From Naematelia aurantialba (Eukaryota > Basidiomycota > Tremellomycetes > Tremellales > Naemateliaceae), in NCBI GenBank assembly GCA_021527695.1, contig JAKFAO010000009.1, positions 248,001 to 312,000 of the forward strand: a stretch of DNA of 64,000 bases. Reading direction: 5' to 3'. Shown here piece after piece: positions 27,146 to 32,273 of this stretch. The notes beneath the pieces were generated by a model that worked only from the letters and a program-made list of their open reading frames with translations, was not told the origin of the DNA and ran no database searches. Made by a program: the position numbers and the translations under genes. Position 1 is the stretch's first letter. Every line of letters starts with the position of its first letter.

Positions 27146-30100
27146 ATGGCTAGTGTGACTACCGCGACGAGGCAGTGCGCAAGGTGCTTGCGTTGTCACC
27201 ACCTGCGCGCTGCGACCGCCGGTCCATCCCGCTATGTGTCCAGTGGCCCTAGCAGGCCACCACGCTCACAGCCGTCCACAAGACTGCCGACAGCAGCTGC
27301 GAGACGTTTGACGACTAGTACGATCCTCCGAGCCCCGAATGAGCGGTCCGTCGAACTGCCCACTAAGAAGCAGAAGATCGAAATGGACGACTTTCCCCCC
27401 GAGCGCATACGGTGCGTTCCATTTCATGGTGTCGCAGAGATGCTGATTCTGACAGGAATCTCTCAATCATAGCTCATATAGACCACGGGAAATCCACATT
27501 AGCAGATCGGCTGCTGCAAATGACCGATACATTACCTGCTTCTGCCTCGCCCCAGTTCCTGGACAAGCTCAAAGTCGAGCGAGAGCGCGGTATCACCGTC
27601 AAGGCGCAGACGGTCTCCATCATACACACACACACCGACGGACACAGGTACTTGATCAACCTCATCGACACACCTGGTCACGTCGATTTCTCATACGAGG
27701 TCAGCCGGAGCCTGGGAGCTTGTGAGGGAGCTCTCATTCTCGTGGATTCAACGCGTACGTCTCTATCCTCCAGGTAGTGTGAAAGTTGTCTTATGGCTGT
27801 CCAGAGGGCATACAAGCTCAGACGCTTTCAGTCTTCCATGTGGCGTTGGAAGCGGAATTGAAGCTTCTGCCAGTGATCAACAAGGTCGATCTGCCACATG
27901 CCATGCCAGAAGAGACTTCCGAGCAAATTGCAACTACCCTCGGCCTGCCTGTGGAGAACCATATGCGGATCTCAGCTAAGAGTGGTCTGGGGGTGGACAA
28001 GGTGCTGGCGCAGATCGTCGATGGGCTGCCACCGCCCAAACAGAGCCAAGGAGATGGGAAATTGAGGGCGTTGGTCTTTGATACACAGTCAGTCGGGCTA
28101 CAGGTATTCCCAAGCGTCACTGCTGACACTGAAGAAAGCTATGACCATTTTCGAGGCGTCGTATCGCTCGTGAGGATTTTCTCAGGCTCTGTCCGTAAAG
28201 GCGACAAAGTACGGTTTCTCCAAGCCGACCGAAAGTACGAGGTGCTGGATATTGGGGTATACAACCCAGAAGAAGTCTCAACAGATGTCCTGCACGAGGG
28301 TCAAGTCGGGTCAGTACTTCTACGTCGCTGTAGGCGGACCATAACTGACGAGACTAGCTACCTCGTAGTCAGCATGAAGAACTCGGACGATGGTGAGACT
28401 TGCACTTGGCATGATAGCTGATGCGCTAGCATTCATAGGCGACACTGTATGTCTGGAAGGGAAACCTGTGGAGCCGCTACCCGGATTCAAACCCATGAAG
28501 GCAATGGTGTTTGCCGGCGCATTTCCTGCCGACACCGCAGACTTCAACAAGCTGGAAGAAGCCATCGAAAGGGTATGCAAACGCCGTGCAAATCTGATCA
28601 ATGATACGCTGACATCACGGCAGCTCACGATCAATGACCGCTCTGGTGGGTATCGCGGCCTATGACAAACTGACGCCTGCAGTGTCTGTGCAGCGAGAAA
28701 CGTCGGCAGCACTGAGCCAAGGCTTTCGGCTTGGCTTTCTGGGAACCTTGCACATGGACGTTTTGTAAGTCCGTCCCATCGTCCATGCTGACACACCAGC
28801 CGTCAACGGCTCGAGGACGAATACTCGTCTAATATCATCATCACCGCGCCCACTGTACCGTACAAAGGCACGCTACAATTTCGATTTCACGTACAAAACT
28901 GATTGTCCCCGTTGTAGTCAACTTCTTCAATGGTCGCCAAGCCATGATCTCCAATCCCGCCGATTTCCCTGAACCAACCGATTTAAAAAATCGGATGCTC
29001 TCGGTCGAGGAACCGATGGGTCAGCATAATTTGCTCAGTCGGGATGCGTGCTAACAGTCAATGATAGTTCATGCCACTATCTTCGTGCCAAACGGTATGT
29101 CTGTTTCAGCTGCCGCGTACCTTGCTGAGAGGTCTGCTGCAGAGTACATTGGGCCGATGATGGACCTGTCTTCAAAGTATCGGGGCGTGCAGCTGGATTA
29201 CAAAGTACTTGACACCACTGGTCGCACCATGCTAAGATACTCGTTTCCCTTGTCTGGTAAGGCTTGTGCTGAAACAGAGCTGACACGATTCAGAAATTGT
29301 CTCCGACTTCTTCTCGGAGCTGAAGAGTGCTTCGTCGGGGTTCGCTTCTTTCGACTACGAAGAAGCGGGTTATGAAGTATCGGACCTGGTCAAGGTGAGT
29401 CATGAAGGCGTGCGACTCGCTGAGGATCGCTTAGCTCAACATGATGCTGAATGGCAAACCGGTCGACGCCCTGGCCATGATTGTACATCGTGACAAAGCT
29501 CAAGCTATTGGAAAGAGGTGGTGCAATAAGCTGAGTAAGTCTGTGGCGAGCGATTGTCCTGATCGAACAGAGAATGTCATTCCCAAGCAACTGTTTGAAT
29601 TAGCCATTCAGGCGTGCATAGGCAGCAAAGTGATTGCCCGGGAGAGTCTCAGCCCTATGCGTAAAGATGTCACAGCCGGATTGTATGGAGGTCAGTACGG
29701 CCTGCGTAGTTGTGGTCTTGTTGTTCATGCTGTAGGTCATTTCGAGCGGAAACTCAAACACCTCAACAAGCAGAAGGAAGGCAAGAAGAGGCTGAAAAAG
29801 CTAGCCGGGAACATCGAGGTACCTCAATCGGCTTTCTTCGACGTGCTGAGCTCTCGACCACGATCCTTTTCGACCTATTCCCGACAATGTGCGGCACCTG
29901 CAGAATTCGATGATCCGATCCTGCCCCGCTTGCCTTTGGACTTTCCAGCACCGCGATCCCTGGACATCTCACCCGATGCTCAGTCATTAGCGGAAGAGAG
30001 AATCGCGAGCCGGCCGTCGAGCGATCTTCTCCCCCGGTTATCAGAATTATTGCGCTTGTCTCAGTCGCCTCGGCATTTGATAGATTCCGAGCAACTCTTT

Positions 30101-31828
30101 CAAGCATACAAGTCGCTCGTGCGCACCGATCCGTATTCTCACCTTCTCACCCCTCCAGAGCTGGGCCGGACGACTGAAACATTGCACGCACTGCACAAAT
30201 CTGAAGGGATAGATGGCCGCATTGCGGACCGGCAAATCCGGGTTCTGCTTGACGATCTCCGACATTTACTGGATAAAGACGGGGCAATGCTGGGTTGGGA
30301 GCTTCGTCGACTTGTCTGGCTCCATCACGCTGATCGTCATCGACCGGACAAATGGGCGAGATATTTGGAACATAATATCCTGCACAGAATGCCCACTGAC
30401 GATACCAGTGATTGGGTCAAAGAGCAGCATGCTTTCGCGGTCTCCCATCTGCTCTATGTTAATGCAAAGAGGGGCGATACTCAATCATTCGAGTCGTGGT
30501 GGAGCCGGCTGTTCGAGGACACGGAAAGGCAAGCTCTCGATCGGACAAGGAGTGCGGCCTGGCTTGCCAGACTGGTCTTGTTGCAGTCAACGAGACAATG
30601 GGACGCCATTCCTACCTGCTTGTGCAATGCGTTCAGTGACGTCAAACAGGACGAGGACAGGATACTACTGCTCAACCAAGCACTTGGCGCTCTGGCCCGG
30701 GGAAGACGGTGGGATCTGGTTGGCCCCGCTTACCGCAAGTTGGTGGCGAAGACTTCAGCGACTGTAGGCTCGATGCCTTCCCCTCTAGACGCGGAGGGAC
30801 AGGACGAAGCGACAGGCGCCACACTGGATGTTCCCGAGACACTCCTTCCCTCAAGAGTGACCTTTAGTCTGATCTTTGGACATGTGTGTCGGGCGGGGCA
30901 TCTGTACACTGCATTTACAGTGCTCAAACAGATGATCAACGCGGGCCATATGCCTCAACTCGGCGAATACGTCGCACTGTTTAGCGGCTTCGCCAAGTAT
31001 GGCACAACATCGACTGATCCTCCTGGCCAGTCTCGCGTCGCCTTTGGCGCATGGCGTGATCATTTTGCTCCAGAACCGATTTTCTCCCGACTGTCAGTGA
31101 TCTGGAGTCGAGGGCGACAGAACGGCGCGTCGACACCTCCCGAATCGGATCACTATTCGTCGCACGGCGAGCAGGCTCCTTTGACAGCTTCGCAATGGAC
31201 ATACGACGCGCTCCGGGACGTATGGGCGGCTTTCCTCGCCCTGGATACCGCTGGGACACCCCATTCAGCGCGACTCACTGCGCGCCAGGCGTCGGCTATA
31301 CTGGTGACATTCGCGCGAATGACCAACGCGAATGACGAGACGCTGCGCGAGGTCTGGTTAGCGCTTGAGGAGAAATTTGGGCGATACACGCATGCGGGGT
31401 TCGACGAGGCTGGCATGTTGAGGCCACATGCGCAGGGTCGCTCGTGGGTCGATAATGCCCGGAACCAGAGGTTTGGGCGCGCGATCTTCCAGGACGAGAA
31501 TATGCAATTTGGGGCTTTTGACGCGCGGACAGCGGGTGAGGCGGACGCGGATGCCGAGGCGGGTGCAGAGGCGGAGGTGGATGCAGAGGATCTGGAGGAT
31601 CTGGAGGGGCGTGACGAGTGGCGAGCGAGTGGTGGACCGGCGAGCGAGTGGGTCGACGAGGCGGTGACCGATGACGACAGGCGAGAAGCGGGGGTAGGGG
31701 CAGACGAAGGGCGAGAGGGAGAGGAAGAAGAAGAGGACGAGGCGGAGCGAAAACTGGCCAGGCGGGATGAGAGGTTTGTAGGTGTAGGTGGGAGCGAGAG
31801 GTTCTTCGATGGCAAGGAGCGGGTGTAG
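27146..31828 (+). CDS. GUF1: GUF1 (mitochondrial LepA/EF4 GTPase) fused to a PPR-like protein
   Basis: The first half is the mitochondrial elongation factor 4 homologue that promotes back-translocation on mitoribosomes. It has an Arg/Ser-rich presequence, G1 [29 protein letters not shown]3 [24 protein letters not shown]4 [15 protein letters not shown], and the LepA-specific end [20 protein letters not shown] then [14 protein letters not shown] (to about 29850). Introns read in frame, e.g. 27412-27455. The frame then continues with no stop or visible intron into [15 protein letters not shown], which is presequence-like. About 640 residues follow, helical and PPR-like ([40 protein letters not shown]), ending with an Asp/Glu-rich tail and KERV at 31828. 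The first in-frame Met of the second half is at 30287. Total about 1,350 aa. Alternatives are two proteins by an unseen splice, or cleavage after import. Confidence 0.88.
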
Positions 31829-32273
31829 GTTTAGGTTAGGGGAGAAGGGGAAATGGGGTGTTGCATTGCATTGTTCACGAGTCAGAGTCATTATCATGCA
31901 TCGCAGCTAGGTCACGGACATGCTAGGCCGGGTGTGCCAGGCCGCGCTGAGATGCAGAGCGTGTAGCCTTGTCTCTGCTGGAGAGGGTACACTAGGTATA
32001 AAGAGTGTATGTGCCACCAAGTCGAGCCCGTGGCAACGCAGCAATGAAAACATGAAATCGCTCGACTATGAACATCTATGACCTTTTCCATTCCATCCCA
32101 CTTCACTCGTCTGTCCGTGTATCCGTCTTGTCGTCCTCTGTCCGTCTTGTCGTTGTTCGCGTCGTCGAGGCTTGTCGACCGTGGTTGATCGTGTTTGGTC
32201 GCTGGTGATTGTGCTTGATCGCTGTGATCGCTACCCGCCTGCGTCGACGCTCTCGCTGCCCTCGGACTCACTC
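31829..32273. other. Intergenic gap before the ZNF830-like gene
   Basis: 445 nt. Degenerate GTCTTGTCGT/GTCCGTCTTGTCG words at 32110-32165 lie in the presumed 5' leader of the next gene. No coding signal is seen. Confidence 0.45.

Follow-up and report, generated by a model that had tools for sequence, protein, structure and literature searches.

In the available text of two studies (PMC7560712, PMC8893259), Atp25 is described as a ribosome factor and an mRNA-stabilising domain that are encoded by one nuclear gene and cut during import in yeast, and the fusion is suggested to keep the ribosome factor off cytosolic ribosomes. Rsm22-Cox11 of fission yeast and some other fungi is an in-frame fusion cut after import, as described in the available part of PMC12375894, and the corresponding part of PMC8847149 presents Arg5,6 of Saccharomyces as a tandem precursor from which internal cleavage by MPP yields two functional enzymes. 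LepA/EF4, to which GUF1 corresponds, is present in all bacteria, with a physiological role that is called unknown in the accessible text of PMC4245954.

Here, we describe a gene of Naematelia aurantialba, located in a 64,000-nucleotide stretch of DNA (the window), in which a complete GUF1 continues in frame into a second half that is probably a helical, PPR-like protein. Atp25 of Saccharomyces and Neurospora shows a comparable order, a ribosome-binding factor followed by a mitochondrial mRNA-metabolism protein, although its first part is RsfS/MALSU1-like and not EF4, and its second part is the M-domain. Rsm22-Cox11, which the preliminary description had already named as a precedent cut after import, also joins a mitochondrial translation-related protein in frame to another mitochondrial protein; its partners differ, however, and its second part is an inner-membrane copper protein. 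On the available text of these sources, Atp25 is a closer precedent than Rsm22-Cox11. Arg5,6 is composed of metabolic enzymes and includes no translation factor. LepA is matched over its whole length by the first half of the fusion, but ends where the fusion runs 657 residues further, whereas PPR proteins have one PPR_2-like helical pair in common with the second half, whose match remains below the Pfam cut-off and in which no tandem array is apparent.

PF13929, which we take to be the model of the Atp25 M-domain, had no match in the genome at E 0.1 and did not appear when the second half was compared with Pfam at E 1. Similarly, an Atp25-type fusion was not seen in this genome by an exon-by-exon search, which may miss one. 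The sole RsfS match in the genome was a short exon in a 93-residue open frame (E 0.0013; G000:C9:215517-215621). As to the placement of the genome, a 128-residue segment of its IMP dehydrogenase had PDB chain 4af0, from Cryptococcus neoformans, as its top match (247 bits; 115 of 128 residues identical, counted from the alignment), ahead of another chain at 193 bits, and a Tremellomycete-like basidiomycete is accordingly likely.

The fusion gene lies on the + strand of the window (27146-31828) and contains 16 exons with 1341 codons (27146-27411, 27456-27754, 27805-28087, 28139-28309, 28358-28392, 28430-28572, 28624-28645, 28683-28764, 28800-28867, 28918-29019, 29068-29094, 29143-29256, 29294-29394, 29435-29534, 29571-29690, and 29736-31828). 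Its spliced translation has no internal stop, in agreement with the in-frame fusion proposed in the preliminary description. The 15 introns, which were placed using LepA homology together with GT-AG (once GC-AG) ends, are 35-51 bases each (14 GT-AG and one GC-AG), and all of them are found in the GUF1 part, with none in the second half. One 51-base intron (28088-28138, + strand; GTCAGT...AAAG) is in frame, stop-free, and was detected as an insertion relative to LepA; the domain, LepA-alignment, and composition analyses used a translation that retains it (1358 aa; numbering +17 past residue 282). The LepA alignment requires removal of the GC-AG intron (28868-28917, + strand; AAAG/GCACGC...TTGTAG) and is ungapped across the resulting junction. 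Three introns (28088-28138, 29535-29570, and 29691-29735) have lengths that are multiples of three and no in-frame stop, such that their retention keeps the frame, and a mechanically called ORF of 795 residues starting at 29441 reads through the last two.

The last exon comprises 696 sense codons after a split codon. Beyond RPRSF, no stop interrupts the next 657 codons of this exon before TAG at 31826-31828, in line with the approximately 650 codons, free of stops and introns, that had been noted initially. Simulation of 300 sequences of 6 kb (first-order Markov, window frequencies, three frames) gave stop-free runs of at most 294 codons, and a chance open frame is therefore excluded. A pseudogene was also rejected, given that the 16 exons share one frame and the lepA match is full-length.

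The GUF1/EF4 half (27146-29854, + strand) is complete to its C-terminal sub-domain. The lepA equivalog model was matched at 760.3 bits (cut-off 533.9) from profile position 2 to 593 of 595, and this coverage (592 of the 595 positions) confirms the earlier view that GUF1 is complete. GTP_EFTU, GTP_EFTU_D2, EFG_C, and LepA_C were all above their Pfam cut-offs (LepA_C: 150.2 bits, cut-off 29.7). In the alignment to LepA, inspected by eye, this half has the catalytic histidine, within a 10-residue motif, and the Gly-Gly (LYGGHFERK) preceding the C-terminal sub-domain, both of which are EF4 features according to the available text of PMC4339808. Residues 1-65 (27146-27340, + strand) lack both D and E, with a net charge of +11; this composition is as expected of a mitochondrial presequence and suggests mitochondrial targeting. 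A search of the 21-Mb genome revealed no further copy of either half. LepA_C matches in this genome were limited to two exons of the fusion gene, which therefore probably carries the cell's only GUF1; a second intact GUF1 elsewhere in the genome was rejected, there being no other LepA_C locus.

To delimit the two halves, we compared the end of the GUF1 homology with the beginning of the sequence that follows. The C-terminal 14-residue motif of GUF1 is encoded at 29807-29848, the homology ends at 29848-29854, and the second half, which begins at 29855, opens with a presequence-like stretch. The lepA match stops at the first serine after FFDVL, two residues before the start of an 18-residue stretch of the second half. 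Four of the five PDB LepA/EF4 chains align up to the leucine or to the first or second serine before RPRSF, and the fifth (3deg_C) is shorter, with an alignment that ends earlier.

The resulting seam (29843-29902, + strand; 20 residues) is presequence-like, contains one R-x-F-S-T motif, and is the proposed region of internal cleavage. It lacks D, E, and K and includes three R and six S or T, a composition that was reached by none of 2630 windows from four background stretches (the core of GUF1, residues 57 onwards of the second half, and two other PPR genes), under criteria set after the seam had been inspected. Under the same post hoc criteria, the motif R-x-[FYL]-[AS]-[ST] occurs once in the fusion and is absent from all four background stretches. 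This motif conforms to R-3 processing sites. The presequence-like look that had been noted at this position thus reflects motif and composition, not net charge or helical moment, neither of which is distinctive for this protein: 10 of the 13 acid-free runs in the fusion carry a net charge of at least +3, and the helical moment of the seam is 0.39 at best, lower than that of the N-terminus (0.47) and of the region immediately preceding the seam (0.42).

The second half (29855-31825, + strand; 657 residues) has no intron and is helical and PPR-like. A single-sequence fold gave 24 helices and no strands over residues 41-537, with long unstructured ends, at low confidence (pLDDT 40). An acidic low-complexity tail is present at the end of the spliced translation (31500-31825, + strand). 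GC skew is strong, 0.44-0.46, across 31400-31999 (0.45 at 31400-31799), an interval that includes the acidic tail and the bases just past the stop. The PPR-like helical pairs reported in the preliminary description were reduced to a single pair (about 30848-30997, + strand; residues 332-381 of the second half), which matched PPR_2 with E 0.02 and 15.4 bits, below the curated cut-off of 30; PPR_1 was also below its threshold (E 0.07; 13.3 bits, cut-off 23.8). When PPR_2 was searched against the genome, this pair ranked 15th (E 0.0126) of 18 matches at E ≤0.1, which were grouped by eye into eight places. Designer PPR chains matched the second half at 6.7e-20 and natural PPR10 at 2.7e-4, the former score being inflated because such chains repeat one consensus and thus multiply a single match. 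A home-made PPR model with just two seeds, both taken from one PPR gene of this genome, found nothing in the second half above shuffled sequences and also missed the repeats of a second PPR gene. No relative was encoded in the stretches matching the search patterns from GTDB genomes (17 stretches) or viral contigs (three stretches), as expected for a fungal protein. We therefore regard the second half as a helical, PPR-like protein, probably of mitochondrial gene expression, rather than as an established PPR family member. It probably binds RNA, although with a PPR match below the cut-off this role is a guess.

We propose, with a probability of about 0.55, that the gene encodes a composite mitochondrial precursor, produced by in-frame gene fusion and cut internally to yield GUF1 plus an independent helical protein that probably binds RNA. 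A single mRNA would be translated into a 1341-residue chain, which the N-terminal GUF1 presequence would deliver to the matrix. There, a processing peptidase would remove this presequence and also cut the internal presequence-like stretch, near RSF↓ST. Cleavage would leave GUF1 with an almost native C-terminus and release a second protein of about 650 residues, with helical repeats, that may act in mitochondrial gene expression. In the available text of PMC4339808, the C-terminal 44 residues of EF4 are described as a functional sub-domain, folded back onto the protein, and a free GUF1 end is thus likely to matter. An internal cut is favoured because of the missing linker at the seam, this C-terminal sub-domain, and the fungal precedents. 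The fusion probably arose through loss of the stop codon of GUF1, of the spacer, and of the start of an adjacent gene that encoded a mitochondrial protein, in which case the seam would carry the leftover presequence of that neighbour. One point against the precursor reading is the poor score of the GC donor that one intron needs: it scores 1.4, whereas all 13 GT donors scored in this gene reach at least 6.1.

Instead of being cut, the product might persist as a single chain, with EF4 permanently tethered to a helical, possibly RNA-binding module that would direct it, and with it ribosome remodelling by EF4, to certain mitochondrial mRNAs or to the mitoribosome. We regard this as possible but unlikely. 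The single frame and the one PPR-like pair agree with it, as do the charge and helical moment of the seam, which do not stand out; however, the end of GUF1 and the next protein meet without a linker, and the presequence-like seam would be left without purpose. In addition, 657 residues attached to the fold-back C-terminal sub-domain, which is needed for ribosome-dependent activity in the available text of PMC4339808, would probably hinder GUF1. By analogy with what has been suggested for Atp25, a variant may be considered in which the bulky second half, uncut in the cytosol, blocks GUF1 from cytosolic ribosomes and import-coupled cleavage activates it.

The two halves could also be separate genes that only seem to be fused, with the second protein made from its own transcript, starting in an unseen first exon or at an ATG at 30287, and with GUF1 transcripts that end early. 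The difference in intron content (15 vs none) and the presence of this in-frame ATG are in line with this explanation, which we nevertheless consider improbable. The ATG at 30287 is in frame and is the first in the last exon, consistent with the initial observation that none lies between the end of GUF1 and this position. A start at 30287 would, however, cost the second half 144 residues, for which this frame has a coding score (best of six frames). With a codon score that had the GUF1 half as its training set, the fused frame was the best of six at 29849-30286, 30827-31499, and 31500-31825, whereas a minus-strand frame with five stops was slightly higher at 30287-30826 (-0.003 vs -0.021), with small differences in all segments. 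Early ends of GUF1 transcripts would leave GUF1 without a stop, given that none precedes the second half, and four AATAAA-like hexamers were absent from the + strand at 29849-30286.

An intron with its own ATG exon feeding the second half, which the preliminary description had named as a refuting result, was sought with splice matrices built from the 14 GT-AG introns of the gene. No GT in 29736-30286 reached the score of the weakest known GT donor of this gene. None of 507 combinations with an upstream ATG exon passed the known minima at intron lengths of ≤120 bases, and a hidden intron of this type was rejected; the gene's own introns are 35-51 bases. With introns of up to 400 bases allowed, 27 of the 507 combinations passed, a result in favour of separate genes, and the 12 of these that were listed all begin at ATGs inside GUF1, in the GUF1 frame. 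A stop near the GUF1 end could still be hidden by a base error in the one assembly examined, but the presequence-like stretch lies within two codons of this end and leaves no room for a separate start.

It is very improbable that two genes were joined by an error of assembly or sequencing, or by a deletion private to this strain: even though the fusion is known from one assembly, the 21.0-Mb genome is assembled in 15 contigs and the gene sits on a contig of 1.47 Mb, the 301-base segment spanning the seam is unique in the genome, none of the 12-mers that start at 29820-29899 is repeated on the + strand of the window, and a complete GUF1 followed by a second half exactly in phase would be an odd result for an error.

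Read as a composite mitochondrial precursor, the gene may represent a new pair of a known kind. Among the listed titles and abstract starts of open-licence PMC papers, no report of GUF1 paired with a PPR-like protein was found. By joining a helical protein of mitochondrial appearance to the sole GUF1 located in the genome, the fusion names a candidate partner for GUF1. If correct, it would be a further case, beside Atp25, of a ribosome factor and a gene-expression protein in one precursor, and would bear on the setting of stoichiometry in organelles and on the mechanisms that keep their translation factors away from cytosolic ribosomes.

A single parallel to the seam motif was observed elsewhere in the window. 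The ORF at 39514-41607 matches the Pfam polyprenyl synthetase model (E 6e-45) and has ASFSTSAP upstream of the enzyme domain; its later part contains the repetitive LYVLYVLYV, which resembles a translated tandem repeat and is perhaps an intron.
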